Source: a virus. Taken from it: a DNA stretch of 29,317 nt. The stretch is from IMG/VR virus record IMGVR_UViG_3300030451_004519, positions 2,182 to 31,498 of that record. One strand, 5' to 3'. The notes under the pieces are model-generated. The model worked only from the letters and a program-made list of their open reading frames with translations. It did no database searches and was not told the origin of the DNA. This document shows positions 4,948-13,046 of the stretch, piece by piece (within the stretch, counting starts at the first letter, position 1; every line of letters starts with the position of its first letter). Both the position numbers and the translations under genes were made by a program.

Positions 4948-6978
4948 TTATTTAGAAGTTTTTCTATCAACACCATCCCATTCACCTTCAGGCATTGGGC
5001 GACTAATTCTTTCTGCATATAAATCAGCAAGTGTATTATTCCATTTGTGTTCTCTGAGTATTGAGATTTGATGAGCACAATCACTCCACAACCTGTCTTG
5101 GTAAAAATCTACCATACGTTGTACAGTCCTTGCATACTTATGATTATCCAATATAGTGTAGATGCTGACAGGTTCTGTTTGTCCTTTTACAGCAACTTTG
5201 TCTAATAATACTGTGCCTTCGACACGTTGTATTTGTTTTAGTGTGTGTTCAGTAAACATAAAAAACACACCATATTCCTTAGTTTGTGCTTCTAATCTTG
5301 CGGCGAGGTTAACACTATCTCCGAGCACGGTATAGTCGAATCTCTGGTCACTTCCCATGTTACCAACAACAGCATCGCCAGTGTTAATACCGATACCAAT
5401 GTTGAGTTCAATGAGTCCTTGTTCACGTAGTTCCTTATTTAATTTTGCCAATGCTGGCTCCATAGCCCTTGCTGTATCAACGGCTTGTTGAGCATGGTCT
5501 TCTATATCTAACGGTGCTCCCCAAATTGCCATTAGAGCATCTCCAATATACTTGTCTATTGTTCCGTTCTTCTCCATAACTAAGTCTGTCATAGGTGTCA
5601 TGTATTTGTTAATTAGTTTGCCTAGTCCTTGTGGATCTGTTTTAAACTGTTCACTAATAGGAGTAAAGCCACGTATATCTGAAAACAAATATGTCATTGT
5701 TTTTGTTTCGCCACCTAACTGTAGCAGTTCTGGATTCTTTTGTAATTTTTTAACCATTGCTGGAGCAAGGTAATGTTCAAACTGTTTCTTAATTTGTTCA
5801 CGCAACTTAAACTGTATCCAAAAGTTATTGAAACTTGCTTGAGAAAATATTAAAAACGTTGCTAACACAGGAAATGTAGCATCAAATAAAACCAAATTAG
5901 CAGTATAAGAATGTACACTATAATATACAATTCCGCCCAAAATAGTAACTGTAGTTACTAATCCTGCCCATATAGGTAACTTATATATTGCAAGGGCAAC
6001 TAATATCATGCTCAACAAGGCGCCTAAGAGTTCATATAAAGCACTTAATTCATTTCGCTGTATGTTTGATCCATCTATAAAATTTTGTAGCATATGGCCC
6101 TGTATTTGTTGTGGATATAAGTTGCCACGTGGAGTTGGTACAGGATTTGCAATCCCTTCTGCTGTAACTCCTATAATAACAAATTTACCTGTAAGGTCTG
6201 GTAGGCTATTAAGGTCAGTATATTCTACTTCTTCAAACGTATTATTAAATCTTATAAATGCAGAACCGTCAGGTTGAGTAACAATAGGATCAAAAGGAGG
6301 TACTGCAAATTCTTGTATTCCAATTTCACTTGTCTTTAACATGTAACTAGGCTTCTGCGTAAACACCCTTAACATTTCAACAGCAAAACTAGGATAAATT
6401 TTATCACCTACTGTAATAGCAAGTGGGTATGTTCTTGTTTGATTGTCAGGTTGTGGTGCTGATGCTATTACACCTATGCCTTCTGCATGTTCTTCAATCG
6501 ATGGAATGTTTGTTACTAGATTGGGCCATTTTAGCAAAGATTGGGTCGGGTTTGAAGGTCCAATCGTCCCTGTGCCAATGTGAGGACCGGAACTCCGAAT
6601 TCCTTTTGAAGAGGGGGTCTGGGACAAAACTATCCCGTTTCCTTTGATCCAACTCGCTAGAATCTCGTCTCCTCCAAATCGATCCTTCTCTGGATACATG
6701 ATGTTGAACCCAATTATACCAGCATTCTTCTGTCTGATATCGTGTATCATCTGTGCATAATTCTGTCTCGGCCATGGATATTGTCCCCAATGTTGTAGGC
6801 TTTTTTCGCCAATGTTTATTATAGCAACTTCGTTGCTTTGTTTTACTTCATCAAATTGTTGTAAGTAATCGAATGTTTGCATTCGAAGACTTTGTAATGG
6901 TGTAGGGTCAGCAACTTTTAGTGCCGTAAGTAATAATATAGATATTGCTACGGCCCAGCCGCTGTATAACCATTTCAT
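4948..6978 (-). CDS. CHASE2-domain membrane adenylate cyclase (class III)
   Basis: A 676-residue sensor cyclase. The order is an N-terminal membrane helix (about 5-22), a periplasmic CHASE2 sensor domain (about 30-305), three membrane helices (about 310-380), and a class III catalytic domain (about 420-570). Catalytic residues are intact: metal-binding Asp434 (LFSDIRGFT) and Asp480 (YIGDALMAIW), substrate-binding Lys476, and Asn557/Arg561 (VNLAARLE). Thr550 (in YTVLG) replaces the usual adenine-specifying Asp, which is typical of class IIIb cyclases. It should convert ATP to cAMP in the cytoplasm in response to an external signal. The reading frame is open to an ATG at 7017, but that lies inside the terminator of the preceding gene and upstream of the late promoter, so I choose the ATG at 6978. 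Very unusual in a phage; the ~100 residues after the catalytic domain are unassigned. Confidence 0.93.
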   Translation of the reverse strand: MKWLYSGWAVAISILLLTALKVADPTPLQSLRMQTFDYLQQFDEVKQSNEVAIINIGEKSLQHWGQYPWPRQNYAQMIHDIRQKNAGIIGFNIMYPEKDRFGGDEILASWIKGNGIVLSQTPSSKGIRSSGPHIGTGTIGPSNPTQSLLKWPNLVTNIPSIEEHAEGIGVIASAPQPDNQTRTYPLAITVGDKIYPSFAVEMLRVFTQKPSYMLKTSEIGIQEFAVPPFDPIVTQPDGSAFIRFNNTFEEVEYTDLNSLPDLTGKFVIIGVTAEGIANPVPTPRGNLYPQQIQGHMLQNFIDGSNIQRNELSALYELLGALLSMILVALAIYKLPIWAGLVTTVTILGGIVYYSVHSYTANLVLFDATFPVLATFLIFSQASFNNFWIQFKLREQIKKQFEHYLAPAMVKKLQKNPELLQLGGETKTMTYLFSDIRGFTPISEQFKTDPQGLGKLINKYMTPMTDLVMEKNGTIDKYIGDALMAIWGAPLDIEDHAQQAVDTARAMEPALAKLNKELREQGLIELNIGIGINTGDAVVGNMGSDQRFDYTVLGDSVNLAARLEAQTKEYGVFFMFTEHTLKQIQRVEGTVLLDKVAVKGQTEPVSIYTILDNHKYARTVQRMVDFYQDRLWSDCAHQISILREHKWNNTLADLYAERISRPMPEGEWDGVDRKTSK

Positions 6979-6983
6979 AAAGA

Positions 6984-6991
6984 TATTTATC
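6984..6991 (-). promoter_or_regulatory. Late-type promoter GATAAATA before the cyclase
   Basis: GATAAATA (6991-6984) is followed by TCTTT and then the ATG at 6978. With T4 geometry the start point is the A of the ATG, giving a leaderless mRNA. A TTGACA lies 7 nt further upstream (7004-6999) but has no -10 box at the right distance. Confidence 0.7.
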
Positions 6992-7006
6992 GTATTTTTG
7001 TCAAGA

Positions 7007-7031
7007 AAAAGCGGCACATAGTACCGCTTTT
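7007..7031 (-). terminator. Rho-independent terminator after the lipoprotein gene
   Basis: AAAAGCGG (7031-7024 on the minus strand) pairs with CCGCTTTT (7014-7007) around a 9-nt loop, followed by more T. It lies 30 nt beyond the stop of the frameshifted product and just upstream of the cyclase promoter, so it separates the two units. Confidence 0.75.
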
Positions 7032-7060: not shown

Positions 7061-7171
7061 TTATTCGCACTCTTTTGGATTTTCTGAACAGTATTTCATT
7101 ATACTCTTAACAAGTATTTTGATATCTGCATCATCTATGCCATTCTTATCTGAATGGCTTATCCCTTTTTT
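7061..7171 (-). CDS. -1 frame extension of the lipoprotein gene (programmed frameshift product)
   Basis: Directly overlapping the end of the lipoprotein gene, the -1 frame is open for 34 codons (GISHSDKNGIDDADIKIL...CSENPKECE) and ends at TAA 7063-7061. It has no plausible start codon of its own except an internal ATG 12 codons from its end. The junction carries A AAA AAG in the lipoprotein frame (7171-7165), a 6-nt spacer and a perfect 7-bp hairpin. Frameshifting would give a protein of about 129 residues. The extension contains a D-x-N-G-x-x-D-x-x-D stretch reminiscent of a short calcium-binding loop, and two Cys near its end. The alternative is a homopolymer miscount of one A. Confidence 0.55.
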   Translation of the reverse strand, partial: KKGISHSDKNGIDDADIKILVKSIMKYCSENPKECE

Positions 7172-7183
7172 GCTTCGTTACCT
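7139..7183 (-). promoter_or_regulatory. -1 ribosomal frameshift signal
   Basis: Read on the minus strand: an SD-like AAGG ending at 7181; 9 nt; the slippery heptamer A AAA AAG (7171-7165) in phase with the lipoprotein codons GCA AAA AAG; 6 nt (GGATAA, containing the 0-frame stop); then GCCATTC (7158-7152), loop AGATAA, GAATGGC (7145-7139). This is the same arrangement as the dnaX-type signal of bacteria: slippery site, stem-loop and upstream internal SD. Confidence 0.65.
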
Positions 7184-7449
7184 TTTTCTTCGTCTTGCAA
7201 TTCGTCGGTTTGATTATCGATTTCTTCACTGACAGTTTCTATTACACCACTAGAGACTTTCGCCGCTGTTGCTGTAATATCTGACACATCTGTTAAGACT
7301 GCTGTACTAACTGTAGCAACACCTTTTACAGAACTATCAATTACACCTGTTGTGAAATCTTTCCCACCTTCAATAACTGCTCCAACTGAGGCACATGATG
7401 GTAGTAATACTAAACCAAGGACTCCAAGAAGTGAATACAATTTATTCAT
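7159..7449 (-). CDS. Small lipoprotein (0-frame product)
   Basis: A 96-residue precursor with a lipoprotein signal peptide: basic start, hydrophobic core and lipobox LLPSC (Cys19). The mature part is rich in Val, Thr, Ser and Ala (GVIDSSVKGVATVSTAVLTD) and looks amphipathic. It then ends in a very acidic, Glu-rich tail. Its size and make-up recall entericidin-like small lipoproteins or phage lysis lipoproteins, but I cannot assign it. The ATG has a clear CAGGAGAAG ribosome site and a 42-nt leader from the GATAAATA promoter at 7497-7504. The last codons form a -1 frameshift site, so a longer form probably exists too. A terminator follows. Confidence 0.85.
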   Translation of the reverse strand: MNKLYSLLGVLGLVLLPSCASVGAVIEGGKDFTTGVIDSSVKGVATVSTAVLTDVSDITATAAKVSSGVIETVSEEIDNQTDELQDEEKGNEAKKG

Positions 7450-8031: not shown

Positions 8032-8937
8032 TTAATCTTGCGTAATTGTTATAGAACATCCACCAGCAGTTTGGCATGTTTGATTAAGGTTGTAAGTTTG
8101 TGCTGTACCACTGTTTTGTGTTAAATTTAAAGTGGTCGGTTGTGATCCATACAAAGTAATATTGGCAGTATGAGCACCATTACCTTTTTGTACGCCACTA
8201 ATTTGACTGCCGTTTTGATAACTTTTATAGTTTACAGTTTTGTTTCCATCGTTAATTTGTTTCCACCAAATATCTTGATTGTTACCATATATCCATATAT
8301 TTGCAGTATGAAATCCTGGATTACTTGTGTTTCCATTTGTTTGATATCCAGCAATAACATTGTTGTCTCCATGATAGTCTAATATTACTTTATGTCCACC
8401 ATGCTCACTGCTATCGCCTTCGTTAAATGTTGTATCACTTATGTTGTTTAGTCCAACACCTTGACCCCATCTCATAAGATTGTTGTCTCCCCAAACGTGA
8501 AAACCTGCTTCTGAATATTGGCAACTTCCATCTTCTGTACATTTTTGTTTTATGTAAACATCATTGTCTACACCATCTATATCACCACAAAATGTTGCGT
8601 TTGGACAGTTTACTTTACCCCATGTACTAGTAAATCCAGCAAAATTATTTTGTCCTTCTTGTGCAATTTTTACTAGGTTACCATCACCTGATACTGAAAA
8701 TTCAACATCGTTATCTTCTCCTAGTTGTCCAATCCACATAGTTAAATTATCGACATTACCATATTGTAGTCCTAACTCCAAGTCAATGTGTTGCCCTTTA
8801 CCTTCTTGTAAAATTGTTAATTCTAAGTTGTCACCAACTTGGTCAATATGAACGTGGTTGTGTTCAGGTCCAGCAAATGCATCATAACTTGCTGTAGCAC
8901 AAAATATTGCTAATAATGTTCCTAATATATATTTCAT
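8032..8937 (-). CDS. Curlin-repeat protein B (secreted amyloid-like subunit)
   Basis: A 301-residue precursor with a signal peptide cleaved near ASYDAFA (residue 22). The mature protein is built of curlin-like strand-turn repeats with Q-x-G-x-x-N spacing, best seen at HIDQVGDNLELTILQEGKGQ, in DNLTMWIGQLGEDN, and in DGNLVKIAQEGQNN. Curlins such as CsgA/CsgB are exported through CsgG and form cross-beta fibres outside the cell. It is about twice as long as E. coli CsgA. It has three Cys pairs and ends in C-x5-C then SITITQD, an ending like those of the FecR-like protein and curlin A. Its ATG directly follows the FecR stop (TAGATG). Last gene of the operon; it could act as the nucleator or main subunit. 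Confidence 0.82.
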   Translation of the reverse strand: MKYILGTLLAIFCATASYDAFAGPEHNHVHIDQVGDNLELTILQEGKGQHIDLELGLQYGNVDNLTMWIGQLGEDNDVEFSVSGDGNLVKIAQEGQNNFAGFTSTWGKVNCPNATFCGDIDGVDNDVYIKQKCTEDGSCQYSEAGFHVWGDNNLMRWGQGVGLNNISDTTFNEGDSSEHGGHKVILDYHGDNNVIAGYQTNGNTSNPGFHTANIWIYGNNQDIWWKQINDGNKTVNYKSYQNGSQISGVQKGNGAHTANITLYGSQPTTLNLTQNSGTAQTYNLNQTCQTAGGCSITITQD

Positions 8938-10134
8938 CTAATCTACCTGTATGATTGTAATAAATGTTCCTTCACAATCATTTAAACATATTGTAGCATC
9001 TTTTAAATTACTATCTTCTACAAATATTTGGGCACTATTACCTGAATTTATTCTAACACTTACTGTATTTGTTACTTGTCTAAAAAAGAATAATTTACCA
9101 TCTTCTAAGACTGTGTTAAATTGTGTTTCAGGATCAAACCCTATTGCAGTACCTGTAATTTTATCTGCGGCTAATCTACCTTCAGATTCGCTACCACTAT
9201 CTCCACTATCTTCTTCTACACTTACTTCTTCTATTTCTTCAAGTAAGTCTTGTAAAAAATCAACGTCTAAAAAATTAATATCTAACGTTGAAAATTCTAA
9301 ATCTTCTGTTGTGTCTGCTAATACATCTGCTTCAATGGCATTAGCATCTAATCCGTCGAAGTCTAAGAGTCCAGCATCACCTTTTAATTGTTCTTGTTGT
9401 TCCTCTTTTGCTTCTACAATCTCTTCTGGCTCACTGACAATAAACATATTGTCTATCATATTCAAATCCAAATCTGCTAAAATAACAGGATTTGTTGGAG
9501 CCTGTTCATATGTACTAACCATAACAGCCTGAAAGGCTTCAGTTAATACTTGCACACCACCGTCATTTGTAATTGTTATACTACCCGATGGTCTGCAACC
9601 TTCCTCCAATTTTACTGTATCTGTACAGCCTGAGTCTGGTAATAGTATTACTAGACTTCTGCCTAACTCATCAACAGTAGTTGTAAAGTCAGTACCCCTA
9701 ATACCAATTGTGGCTGTAGGAGTTTGTACGACTATATTTTCCTTTGGCACCAATCCTAATCCACCAGTGGCAAAACGTGCCGTTCCTTGCACAAAATCTA
9801 ATGCCATCCTGCTTTTACTTGGATCAGGATCGTACACATAATCATTTATAATCATATATGTGTGTTCAGTTAAACTTACCTGTGTATCATCGACAAACTT
9901 TAATTTTAAACGACCGTTAACCGTTTCAACTTCGTCCATGCTTTGTATGTCTGTGTCTAGTTCTGCAATCAATCTTTCACCAGACGTTCTACTAATACTT
10001 CCGGGTGAGCCAACTTGCTCAAATACTCCGCCTATACTCTCATTGGCATAGGCGGAAATACTATATGTTGCACTAAACAGCAAAAATGTGTATAAGCAAA
10101 CTTTAGTCAGTTTGTCTGATACTAACCGAAGCAT
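8938..10134 (-). CDS. Secreted FecR-domain protein in the curli-like operon
   Basis: A 398-residue precursor with an N-terminal signal peptide (cleavage near residue 30, SISAYA). A FecR domain follows (about 35-200), with its hallmark TPTATIGIRGTDF at 138-150. Then comes a long acidic, low-complexity region (about 230-320) and a C-terminal beta segment ending CLNDCEGTFITIIQVD. Classical FecR spans the inner membrane and controls a sigma factor; here there is no cytoplasmic anti-sigma part and no sigma gene, so a periplasmic or exported structural role is more likely. The C-terminal Cys pair and QVD ending match those of both neighbouring curlins, suggesting the same export route. It overlaps the end of curlin A by about 32 nt. 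A GTG at 10140 is an alternative start. Confidence 0.83.
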   Translation of the reverse strand: MLRLVSDKLTKVCLYTFLLFSATYSISAYANESIGGVFEQVGSPGSISRTSGERLIAELDTDIQSMDEVETVNGRLKLKFVDDTQVSLTEHTYMIINDYVYDPDPSKSRMALDFVQGTARFATGGLGLVPKENIVVQTPTATIGIRGTDFTTTVDELGRSLVILLPDSGCTDTVKLEEGCRPSGSITITNDGGVQVLTEAFQAVMVSTYEQAPTNPVILADLDLNMIDNMFIVSEPEEIVEAKEEQQEQLKGDAGLLDFDGLDANAIEADVLADTTEDLEFSTLDINFLDVDFLQDLLEEIEEVSVEEDSGDSGSESEGRLAADKITGTAIGFDPETQFNTVLEDGKLFFFRQVTNTVSVRINSGNSAQIFVEDSNLKDATICLNDCEGTFITIIQVD

Positions 10135-10924
10135 TTTCACTATCTAAATCAACGTCAATTTTACCAGTACAGGCAGGAGTACACGATGCCGCATTACTTT
10201 GTAAAAATTGGAAATCACCATCTGAACCTACTAAAACAAATTTTAAGTAATGGTTAGAGTTACCAGTTTGATTTGATGTAATAGCATTATCGTCACCAGT
10301 AATGTTCATTTCCCAAGTTGCGGAACCGGCGTCAACCTTAACACCACTTTGTGAAAAAGCGGCAGTATTGTTCCAATCAGAACCAGGAGTACCACTCCAT
10401 GCTCTTGAGTTAGAAACAGCACTTCTAAAGTCGTTCCTGTCACCTAGTATTGTTAAATCCATATTGAGGTTGTCTGCGGCATAGTTACCACCAATATCTA
10501 CATCAAAAATGTTTGTATCACCTTGAACATTCCAAAGCATGTCAACATTATCTGCACTACCAGTTGCACCTATGTTTAAATCTAATGAATTAGAATCTCC
10601 TAAAAAGTAGAAATCCCATACAGTTGATCCAGAACCGTCTCCAGTCCATGCACCAAATATTTCATTACCATCACCGTCTTGAATGATATCAATAATCAAG
10701 TTAGATCCTGTAATAACTAAATCGCTACCATCAGAAGCATCACCTGATAATTTGTTACCACTACCAGCCTGTAATATAGTCAAAGTCAAATTATCACCTT
10801 GTTGGTCTAACAAAACTTCGTTATCGTCAGCACCTAAGGCAGGAGCAAAAATTCCAAGTCCTAGGCCCATAACAGCGAAGACATTGATTGCAAAATTTCT
10901 AAAGAAATTATTTTTAGTCTTCAT
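10103..10924 (-). CDS. Curlin-repeat protein A (secreted amyloid-like subunit)
   Basis: A 273-residue precursor with a signal peptide (cleavage near APALG, residue 31) and degenerate curlin repeats: VLLDQQGDNLTLTILQAGSG, then IIDIIQDGDGNEI, GDSNSLDL, GDTNIFDV, GDRNDF and GDDNAITSNQTGNSN. It is rich in Asn, Asp, Gly and Ser, and starts like curlin B (DQxGDNLxLTILQxGxG), so the two are paralogues. It ends C-x3-C, a spacer, then SVSIRQTD. The ATG at 10924 has an excellent GGAG site 6-7 nt upstream and overlaps the csgG stop by 11 nt; an upstream ATG at 10936 has no ribosome site. The product should pass through the CsgG pore encoded just before it. Confidence 0.82.
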   Translation of the reverse strand: MKTKNNFFRNFAINVFAVMGLGLGIFAPALGADDNEVLLDQQGDNLTLTILQAGSGNKLSGDASDGSDLVITGSNLIIDIIQDGDGNEIFGAWTGDGSGSTVWDFYFLGDSNSLDLNIGATGSADNVDMLWNVQGDTNIFDVDIGGNYAADNLNMDLTILGDRNDFRSAVSNSRAWSGTPGSDWNNTAAFSQSGVKVDAGSATWEMNITGDDNAITSNQTGNSNHYLKFVLVGSDGDFQFLQSNAASCTPACTGKIDVDLDSENASVSIRQTD

Positions 10925-11894
10925 TATTTTCTCCATTATTCTTTAAGAGCATTTTCTCCCAAAGTTTTTTATCGGCTTTGATGTCCTCTGGATCTATGTC
11001 TACTTTCATCCATGTTGCCTGTTCATCAGGAGAGAGTTCTTGAACTTCCCAGCCTTCCGGATAAACAATTTTCCAGTAACCCCTTTCATCGCCTTGTTGT
11101 ATCAATGCCAATACTGCGGCTTCAATAGCCGAACGTACTGCCCAAGTTACACTTTCATTCTCTGTCATACCACTTTCAAGTTCAAGAAGTTTTGTATCCA
11201 TATCTAAAAATCTAAACACATCGCCTCCTACACCTGTACTCAAAATGGTTTTGTATGTCTGTACGTTGAGTAACACTTCGCCAGTGAGTGTGCTTATGGC
11301 TCTCAGTGATACAACAACACTATCTCTTCGATATTGGTTTGTAGTTCCAATACCGAGATATCTTGCACCGTTACCGCCAGTCTCGATATTAGTATCATAA
11401 CCTATGATGCCTCCCTCTAATATCATGCCTGCGAATAACAATGGTTGGACTCCTTCTGCCGGTGCTTCTTCTGTGGCAAACTGTTCGCGAGTACTACGAA
11501 CAATTTGTCTTTCCCGGACAAGGTGGTCTAAGCCTACTCCTCTCTCTACGACTCTGAACCATGTGCCTTTAGGATTTTCTTTGGCACCTGCGGCTTTGAG
11601 AGAGTCAATTAATAAATCTTTTGCACCTTGTGTAACTGCGGTGCTGAAACTTGCAACTCCATCTGAACTTACTCTTTGTCCAGTTAAATCTGCAAAGTCA
11701 TAAACTGCAACCACTGGCATAACTTCAGCCGGTGGTAAGTTTCTTAATTTTTTATATGTGGGTAATTCTATAAATTGTGGTTCTTCTATACACTCAAGGA
11801 AATTTGAACCACAGGCTTTGTCACCAGGTATGGAAATACTGGCGCATCCGCTAATTAGCAAAGCAAATATTACTGCTATCAATCCTTGTTTCAA
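10914..11894 (-). CDS. csgG: CsgG-like outer-membrane curli secretion pore lipoprotein
   Basis: A 326-residue lipoprotein that follows E. coli CsgG along its length: lipobox LLISGC (Cys17), LPPAEVMPVVAVYDFADLTG, SFSTAVTQGAKDLLIDSLK, VVERGVGLDHLVRERQIVRS, LFAGMILEGGIIGYDTNI, GGNGARYLGIG, and the transmembrane-hairpin region up to KTILSTGVGGDVFRFLD. CsgG forms a nonameric channel in the outer membrane that exports curlins. It is about 50 residues longer than CsgG, with an acidic extra C-terminal tail and an inserted Cys-x7-Cys after the lipobox. The only possible start is TTG at 11894, since an in-frame stop lies four codons upstream. It starts 4 nt after the csgF stop and overlaps curlin A at its end. 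Confidence 0.95.
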   Translation of the reverse strand: MKQGLIAVIFALLISGCASISIPGDKACGSNFLECIEEPQFIELPTYKKLRNLPPAEVMPVVAVYDFADLTGQRVSSDGVASFSTAVTQGAKDLLIDSLKAAGAKENPKGTWFRVVERGVGLDHLVRERQIVRSTREQFATEEAPAEGVQPLLFAGMILEGGIIGYDTNIETGGNGARYLGIGTTNQYRRDSVVVSLRAISTLTGEVLLNVQTYKTILSTGVGGDVFRFLDMDTKLLELESGMTENESVTWAVRSAIEAAVLALIQQGDERGYWKIVYPEGWEVQELSPDEQATWMKVDIDPEDIKADKKLWEKMLLKNNGENNED

Positions 11895-11898
11895 ATTT

Positions 11899-12387
11899 TT
11901 ACCCGCCTAATGTTCCGATTCCGATAGGTATTTCTATTTCCGTAATTGTTCCATCTGCGTCAACAATAGTCAGTTTTATATATTCTATGCCGTCTACTGT
12001 AATTACCTGGTATGAGACGTTACTGTCTTCAATAGTAAATGCACCTTCGGTAGAATTAGTACAAGTTGGTACTTCTGCAGGATTACAAAACATACTATCA
12101 ACTAATCCTTTAGAAATTTGTGAATAGATCCTACTCTCCAAATTTCTAATAAATTTATTAATAGTGCTGTTAGATTCTGCTCTTTCAGCCGCCCTTAAAG
12201 CCGCTTCAATATCATCTCTTATTTTATCTTTTCTACTCTTCTCCTGATTTTCGATTGTTAAATAATGAGCTCCAGTTCCTATTCCACTAAAACTAGGGTT
12301 CTTAAATTTATGTGTAAGTTTGTCAGCAGATGCTGTCATACTGCCAAATGCAAACATTACAACTAAAAAATAATTTAAAATTTTCAT
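11899..12387 (-). CDS. csgF: CsgF-like curli assembly factor
   Basis: A 162-residue precursor with a signal peptide (cleavage near TASA, residue 21). The mature N terminus LTHKFKNPSFSG...HYL matches the CsgF segment (TFQFRNPNFGG in E. coli) that inserts into the CsgG pore and forms its second constriction. The middle is helical, and the C terminus ends in beta strands with a Cys-x7-Cys (FCNPAEVPTC) not present in E. coli CsgF. CsgF caps the pore and helps nucleate fibres at the surface. Its ATG overlaps the stop of the upstream small gene (ATGA), and csgG follows by 4 nt, so pore and cap are made together. Confidence 0.85.
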   Translation of the reverse strand: MKILNYFLVVMFAFGSMTASADKLTHKFKNPSFSGIGTGAHYLTIENQEKSRKDKIRDDIEAALRAAERAESNSTINKFIRNLESRIYSQISKGLVDSMFCNPAEVPTCTNSTEGAFTIEDSNVSYQVITVDGIEYIKLTIVDADGTITEIEIPIGIGTLGG

Positions 12388-12686
12388 TTCTTTTTCTTTT
12401 CAGCCTGCTCTTTTTCAGCAAGGGCCTCCTTTTCTTCTGCGTCCTGCAAAATTTCTTGTCGTGTTCTATATTCTAAAACTACGTCTACTTTCTGTTGCAA
12501 ACGAATTAAGTCTTGATCCAACATTCTTGTTTGGTCTATTACTCTAATAAGTGCCATATGCATTTTACCTAATGCGGGTTTTATTTCACTATTAATATAT
12601 TTCCATACATAGTAAATAAAGTACCCTAAGCCAACACAGGCAACGACTGGAAATCCATATTGAGAGATTAATTGTGCTACGTCCAT
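12384..12686 (-). CDS. Small membrane-anchored coiled-coil protein (paralogue 2)
   Basis: A 100-residue protein with one N-terminal membrane helix (QYGFPVVACVGLGYFIYYVW), then a charged, probably coiled-coil helix and a Lys/Glu-rich tail ending in KKKK. It is a paralogue of the gene just upstream: both begin with a short polar stretch, then GFP, a Gly/Ala-rich helix and GYFI. The fold plan resembles BhlA/YvrJ-type small phage proteins (holin-like), but no function is shown. The start overlaps the upstream stop (TAATG) with a strong AAGGAGAG site, and its stop overlaps the csgF ATG, so it belongs to the same coupled operon as the pore. Confidence 0.75.
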   Translation of the reverse strand: MDVAQLISQYGFPVVACVGLGYFIYYVWKYINSEIKPALGKMHMALIRVIDQTRMLDQDLIRLQQKVDVVLEYRTRQEILQDAEEKEALAEKEQAEKKKK

Positions 12687-12982
12687 TAATCTCTCCTTAC
12701 ATCGAGTTTTCCGTCCTCAATAAAGTTTTCTGCCCTGGCTACTCGTTCTATATCAGGTCTTAATTCCAAAGCAGAACTTACTAACATATCGATTTTAATC
12801 ATCTCATTGCTCATTGTTCTTGCTCTATTTTCTAATGATTCACAAAACTTAGTCAAAGTTTCGACCTGACCGACGACACCGGCCATTAATTGCTTAATTA
12901 TAATAAAGATAAAATAACCCATTACTATCGCTCCGGCAATAGGAAATCCTACCTCTGCTATTAATTGAAATACTTCGTTCAT
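12686..12982 (-). CDS. Small membrane-anchored coiled-coil protein (paralogue 1)
   Basis: A 98-residue protein: MNEVFQLIAEVGFPIAGAIV leads into a single membrane helix ending GYFIFIIIKQL, followed by a long helical region with regular hydrophobic spacing (LTKFCESLENRARTMSNEM). First gene of the curli-like operon. The frame also offers a GTG at 12988; the ATG at 12982 is chosen because it matches the start of its paralogue. A holin-like or membrane-scaffold role is possible (BhlA/YvrJ-like plan). Its coupling to csgF points instead to a partner of the secretion pore at the inner membrane. It follows a GATAAATA promoter with a leader of about 59 nt. Confidence 0.72.
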   Translation of the reverse strand: MNEVFQLIAEVGFPIAGAIVMGYFIFIIIKQLMAGVVGQVETLTKFCESLENRARTMSNEMIKIDMLVSSALELRPDIERVARAENFIEDGKLDVRRD

Positions 12983-13046
12983 TCGCACACTCTGTTTGTT
13001 ATATTTTTTATATGTAGTGTGATGTCTGTCTGTTACTCTACGCAGT

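Follow-up and report, generated by a model that had tools for sequence, protein, structure and literature searches.

Introduction

Curli operons carried by phages have already been published, as the available portions of PMC7029224, PMC9599517 and PMC9004378 record, and in HTVC008M, Melnitz and uncultivated pelagiphages the genes follow nearly the same order as in the locus studied here, namely csgF, csgG, curlin, fecR, (curlin) and adenylate cyclase. This locus lies in IMG/VR virus record IMGVR_UViG_3300030451_004519, which is 31,498 bases long and has portal, capsid and tail genes of the T4-like kind; the stretch analysed, hereafter the window, comprises its positions 2,182 to 31,498 (29,317 nucleotides). 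The minus strand of the window reads csgF, csgG, curlin A, a FecR-domain protein (hereafter FecR), curlin B, two small genes and a CHASE2-adenylate cyclase, and the operons of HTVC008M, Melnitz and the pelagiphages hold counterparts of curlin A, FecR and curlin B. Here we describe an ending of FecR that is kept in nearly all of its phage relatives and resembles the closing strand of curlins, and weigh whether FecR could be a factor that handles curlins.

The curlin strand signature has been published as N-$-ψ-$-ψ-$-Q, with CsgA proteins terminating in full or half repeats, and the last repeat of CsgB is described as degenerate, with a suggested role in binding CsgF (PMC10192328, in the part of that paper available). 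For phages, PMC9599517 interprets FecR as a regulator in its accessible text, while the corresponding portion of PMC9004378 describes Melnitz as being without csgA and csgB. Contrary to the latter statement, the Melnitz GenBank record and its sequence (L002) contain two curlin-repeat proteins. The available portions of the three phage papers carry no description of the FecR ending or of the cysteine pairs discussed below. In the open-licence literature we found no joint treatment of FecR, curlin and CsgG; judged by title, only PMC9599517 was relevant to FecR, curli and phage together, and no paper was devoted to C-terminal curlin cysteines or disulphides in phage.

Results

The endings that the initial annotation had read in three proteins of the operon, each following a close pair of cysteines, match the letters of the three minus-strand genes exactly. 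Curlin A terminates in the strand SVSIRQTD (residues 270–277, 10106..10129; C-terminus SCTPACTGKIDVDLDSENASVSIRQTD), FecR in FITIIQVD (residues 393–400, 8941..8964; C-terminus ICLNDCEGTFITIIQVD), in which I394, I396 and Q398 are conserved, and curlin B in SITITQD (residues 295–301, 8035..8055; C-terminus TCQTAGGCSITITQD), the two curlin strands being assigned from the sequence and its relatives. These features, and those of the operon given below, lie on the minus strand.

Relatives were collected in two sets, set 1 consisting of 160 phage loci and set 2 of 125 more, obtained from two other starting points. The scans for related loci gave the best 80 of up to 588 confirmed stretches, and set 1 is therefore biased toward the window. 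The strict terminal pattern was defined as [VILMF]-x-[VILMF]-x-Q-x(0-4)-end, with ψ standing for [VILMF] throughout, and FecR sequences with a truncated start were counted where the end was intact. All 122 distinct FecR proteins of set 1 carry the pattern (32/32 clusters at 70% identity), as do 87 of 88 in set 2, giving 209 of 210 distinct FecR proteins over both sets, 40/40 clusters at 70% and 12/12 at 50%; the sole miss (L349) is a protein that ends inside the linker. The same pattern closes 13 of 436 other open reading frame (ORF) clusters, nine of them curlins, and 3.0% of shuffled FecR tails, so the proposal that the ending is specific to the operon and kept in relatives holds well. Among the remaining operon proteins of set 1 it is present in 27/30 clusters of curlin B and 0/25 of CsgG. 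Curlin A has it at the very end in 8/31 clusters and within the last 16 residues in 29/31, the pattern often falling short of the terminus because several lineages append a short tail. A complete curlin half-repeat, G-x-x-[NSH]-x-ψ-x-ψ-x-Q, ends 107 of the 210 FecR proteins (14/40 clusters at 70%), compared with 0.08% of shuffled tails and 0/426 other phage ORF clusters, the latter being the 436 clusters from which the nine curlins and one curlin A had been removed by name.

On curlins, an ending of this type is to be expected, and it agrees with the published strand signature and with the half-repeat termini described there. For the bacterial comparison 80 csgG loci were fetched from genomes, and loci 164-169, 171-174 and 192 were excluded from the counts as phage pieces, judged by gene content or, for locus 165, of which only csgG is shown, by likeness to the other excluded loci. 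With a broader pattern, in which A, S and T are also allowed and up to five residues may trail, the ending is found in 85/110 bacterial curlins and in 41/807 other bacterial ORFs; the strict pattern ends 32/110 of these curlins. That the curlin endings are in themselves unusual is thereby ruled out, since they are the ordinary last half-repeat. With the ending expected in curlins, what needs explaining is its presence on FecR. An explanation that we hold plausible, if somewhat short of probable, is that FecR is a dedicated curlin-handling factor, putatively pairing with curlin through a last strand that imitates a curlin edge. As far as the sequences allow a judgement, capping or docking would be the likeliest of the proposed roles of the ending.

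The conservation of the strand can be followed to single residues. In 73 aligned FecR proteins, no columns of the last ~58 residues other than I394, I396 and Q398 reach 90% conservation, and in an alignment restricted to the C-terminal domain (72 sequences, otherwise 22–80% identical to that of the window) I74 and Q78 do not vary at all and I76 hardly does. In 27/32 FecR clusters the terminal 7-mer is the best or second-best match within its protein to a weight matrix built from 94 bacterial curlins, a result made easier by the matrix demanding Q. Residue statistics ahead of the FecR end suggest a strand spacing of ~10-11 residues, like that of curlin repeats. AlphaFold2, run on 72 sequences, models residues 321–400 (8941..9180) as an all-beta domain of seven strands (pLDDT 93.5, pTM 0.81), which the terminal strand closes. 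In a viral fold library this model matches only another phage FecR (E 4.4e-3), and a sequence search of the PDB with the C-terminal profile gave 7 matches, none significant (best E 0.21).

FecR of this kind is closely tied to csgG. Wherever enough flank was available, csgG was found at most 2.5 kb upstream of fecR (91/91 FecR genes) and fecR at most 2.5 kb downstream of csgG (94/94 csgG genes); in set 2, csgG lies at most 2.6 kb upstream of fecR in 67/67. FecR-domain matches at E 1e-10 occur in 101 of 289 alphaproteobacterial genomes, and among the matches listed only that of Hyphomonas sp. TMED17 covers the whole FecR model, the rest reaching at most the first 258 of 375 positions; no other match was present at E 1e-40 in 398 genomes of the order to which Hyphomonas belongs. 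The nearest cellular counterpart found is a chromosomal csgF-csgG-curlin-fecR-cyclase cluster of this organism (L170:7495-13518, on a 705-kb contig), its genes named by sequence likeness and by the CsgG and FecR profiles; its FecR has a C-terminus of the same outline (NEGASGSVFILE). A genome scan with the FecR profile and a viral scan with the Hyphomonas FecR each returned no relative. Even a loose form of the ending was absent from the 18 non-curli alphaproteobacterial FecR-domain proteins compared (0/18), a set from which ORFs below 60 bits or with identical last 60 residues had been dropped and in which several of the 20 regions stopped before the gene end. Judged by these sequences, the C-terminal beta domain is confined to csgG-linked FecR proteins. 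Many open frames with FecR domains in Alphaproteobacteria (G002, G106, G198 and others) are of great length, the longest having 6913 residues, a hint that such domains are often part of large surface proteins.

These data also bear on the possibility that the likeness to curlin is accidental, the C-terminal domain itself needing I-x-I-x-Q for its fold and FecR doing something else. The motif is short, 3% of shuffles reaching its loose form, neither the profile nor the fold searches detect a relation to curlin, and the C-terminal domain is modelled with confidence as compact and all-beta, all of which such a coincidence of fold would accommodate. It accounts less readily for the longer half-repeat (107/210 FecR against 0/426 other ORF clusters), for a fast-changing domain that keeps only these columns and for the strict linkage to csgG, and we regard it as somewhat unlikely.

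The proposal that FecR handles curlins nevertheless has to be set against a number of observations that weigh the other way. The Pfam curlin repeat PF07012 was not detected in any of 33 FecR proteins at E 1, and curlin B and the C-terminus of FecR, compared profile against profile, scored 14.0, which is chance level given shuffles of up to 14.1. Searches of the PDB with the C-terminal model reached a best E of 0.42 with Foldseek and a best Z of 4.1 with VIA-align, neither of them significant, with no curlin among the matches listed. Alternating isoleucines are expected in any strand of a beta-sandwich, and a match to the loose pattern has a chance of ~3% before conservation is considered; the FecR proteins are moreover homologous to one another, so that 209/210 represents the conservation of one event and not independent events. 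The complete half-repeat, when sequences are clustered at 50%, is confined to 2/12 FecR clusters, and the Hyphomonas FecR ends in SVFILE, with E in place of Q. The likeness of FecR to curlin could reflect mimicry or coincidence as well as descent, between which these comparisons do not discriminate.

The cysteines behave differently from the strand. In curlin A the pair C252-x3-C256 (10169..10183) stands one strand before the terminal strand; in FecR, C385-x3-C389 (8974..8988) lies in the last arc, where it replaces a glycine-rich turn ahead of the last strand, and is a trait of the window's own clade; in curlin B, C288-x5-C294 (8056..8076) clamps the last beta-arc. Within the last 35 residues, C-x3-6-C is present in 6/32 FecR, 16/31 curlin A and 30/30 curlin B clusters of set 1. 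The module that had been proposed for the three C-termini thus survives in its strand, ψ-x-ψ-x-Q followed by 0-4 residues, and fails in its disulphide, most FecR relatives being without cysteines there and the pairs occupying different positions. A single shared Cys-plus-strand module is ruled out on the same grounds, the pairs being missing from 26/32 FecR clusters. On the sequences compared, the common feature of the three proteins is a curlin-type closing strand and not a disulphide module. Cysteines at the C-terminus do set phage curlins apart from bacterial curlins: at least two occur in the last 40 residues in 28/31 curlin A and 30/30 curlin B clusters of set 1 and in 0/110 bacterial curlins. 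In set 2, which is rich in HTVC008M-type phages, just 18/70 curlin A sequences have at least two in the C-terminus, and FecR and curlin A of HTVC008M are both without the pair. Phage CsgF has at least two cysteines within its last 70 residues in 73/100 sequences, that of the window (11899-12387) containing CNPAEVPTC; a comparison with the cysteines of bacterial CsgF was not used, as it includes contigs judged to be phage pieces. Cysteine pairs are a recurrent trait of phage curli proteins, less constant than the strand, and are not the shared module. In some phage lineages the outer proteins may have gained them as disulphide staples.

The initial annotation had also suggested that the ending might be an export signal; it would then be a C-terminal tag recognised by CsgG or CsgF. 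In line with this, the window, HTVC008M and Melnitz each carry the ending on all three proteins encoded between csgG and the cyclase gene. However, right after the signal peptide (identified by eye) a DN-E-[IV]-x-[IL]-x-Q-type motif is found in 27/31 curlin A and 24/30 curlin B clusters and in 1/32 FecR clusters, and because the curlins share this N-terminal motif, which FecR lacks, the C-terminal ending is improbable as an export signal. The known tag in E. coli is likewise N-terminal, CsgG reading the N-terminus of CsgA (PMC6957492, from the part available), and bacterial curlins end in the same type of strand (85/110 by the broader pattern). We consider export tagging by the ending very unlikely.

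The rest of FecR (400 residues; 8938..10140, its start overlapping the end of curlin A) admits two further explanations. Its FecR domain (residues 71–162, 9655..9930; PF04773, 38.9 bits) matches the fold of the PupR periplasmic domain 6ovk with a Z of 15.8 and an rmsd of 2.4 over 135 residues, and its N-terminal part gives a middling match to 5ix9, a solved 'cell surface anchoring domain', with a Z of 7.3 and an rmsd of 2.1 over 73 residues. An acidic linker of about residues 240–325 (9166..9423) is modelled mostly at low confidence, with pLDDT below 50 at 260–271, 277–288 and 307–323. At the N-terminus, ~12 residues precede a hydrophobic stretch in the sequence (helix 2–29 in the model), and no cytoplasmic anti-sigma part was found in the sequence ahead of it, which makes a direct sigma-factor role, as in FecR/FecI, unlikely. 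Nor was a sigma factor matched by Pfam among the 20 window ORFs scanned, the window having 41 ORFs of at least 80 residues.

A signalling role of another kind would have FecR bind unsecreted curlin in the periplasm through its strand and report to the CHASE2-adenylate cyclase, so that cAMP tracks the state of export. The PupR match invites this, and the window, HTVC008M, Melnitz and Hyphomonas all have a gene for an adenylate or guanylate cyclase further along (CHASE2 being identified by Pfam in the window only). A biofilm operon of Burkholderia also combines genes for FecR-domain and CHASE2 proteins (PMC5192318, in its accessible portion), and a regulator is how the phage FecR has been read in the available text of PMC9599517. 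Against such a sensor stands the N-terminal hydrophobic stretch with no cytoplasmic anti-sigma part before it, and we judge it unlikely.

The match to 5ix9, together with the very long alphaproteobacterial frames noted above, instead speaks for FecR as the anchor and seed of the fibre: with the FecR domain as a periplasmic plug, the acidic linker would thread the CsgG-CsgF channel, outside which the C-terminal domain and its curlin-like strand would start the fibre. FecR would then be the curli counterpart of plug-anchored giant adhesins, an arrangement that we think decidedly unlikely.

The other genes of the cluster were assigned as follows. CsgG, the outer-membrane channel, is encoded at 10914..11894 (PF03783, 155.8 bits) and its partner CsgF at 11899..12387 (PF10614, 50.3 bits). 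Curlin A (277 residues, 10103..10936), flanked by csgG and fecR, scores 21.2 bits with PF07012, against a cut-off of 20.7, while curlin B (301 residues, 8032..8937) scores 18.2 bits, below this cut-off, with repeats that are nevertheless visible in the alignment. By Pfam, CsgG, CsgF and curlin genes thus stand together, as in a type VIII secretion (curli) operon; CsgE, CsgC and CsgD had no Pfam match among the 20 ORFs scanned. The far gene of the cluster, and usually the last of the operon, is the phage-encoded CHASE2-adenylate cyclase (4948..7017; PF05226, 131.1 bits, and PF00211, 73.3 bits). Between it and the curli genes lies a small predicted protein (7159-7449) with a lipobox-like start, LPSCAS, and no Pfam match at E 1. 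Directly upstream of csgF are two adjacent paralogous proteins of 100 residues (12384-12988), both matching phrog_18771 and, weakly, the holin family phrog_4898. One or two histidine kinase genes are said to precede phage curli genes in the accessible part of PMC9599517; none was detected upstream of csgF by Pfam in the window scan.

Discussion

If FecR is a curlin-handling factor, as we tentatively propose, it would go to the periplasm and, being without the N-terminal motif common to both curlins, would be retained there. Its last strand could then be presented as a false curlin edge, with which curlin subunits would pair, FecR capping, holding or templating them at the CsgG channel. In doing so it may perform the job done elsewhere by CsgC, CsgE, CsgH or CsgB. 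Alphaproteobacteria have been described as being without csgC, csgD and csgE (PMC3521004, in the part available).

Curli genes are carried by phages widespread in the ocean. Should the proposal be correct, their FecR would be a handler of curlins and not a regulator of the iron type, and the phage operon would constitute a self-contained set for export and assembly, replacing periplasmic helpers that are missing. FecR would also be a candidate explanation of amyloid control in curli systems without CsgC, CsgE or CsgH.

Among known systems, the FecR/PupR signalling proteins share with the phage FecR the PF04773 domain and the PupR fold. They differ in that the phage protein is without the N-terminal anti-sigma part and has an extra linker and a C-terminal beta domain, whose ending is absent from all 18 non-curli FecR proteins compared. 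CsgC and CsgH are small all-beta periplasmic domains that restrain curlin assembly in bacteria; no sequence or fold match between them and FecR is among the matches listed, but the C-terminal domain of FecR is also small and all-beta. With the curlins CsgA and CsgB the comparison is closest at the terminus. FecR has one recognisable terminal strand, no Pfam curlin match and, among the matches listed, none to a curlin fold, yet it shares with them the closing strand ψ-x-ψ-x-Q, and roughly half of the FecR proteins have the entire half-repeat GxxNxψxψxQ.

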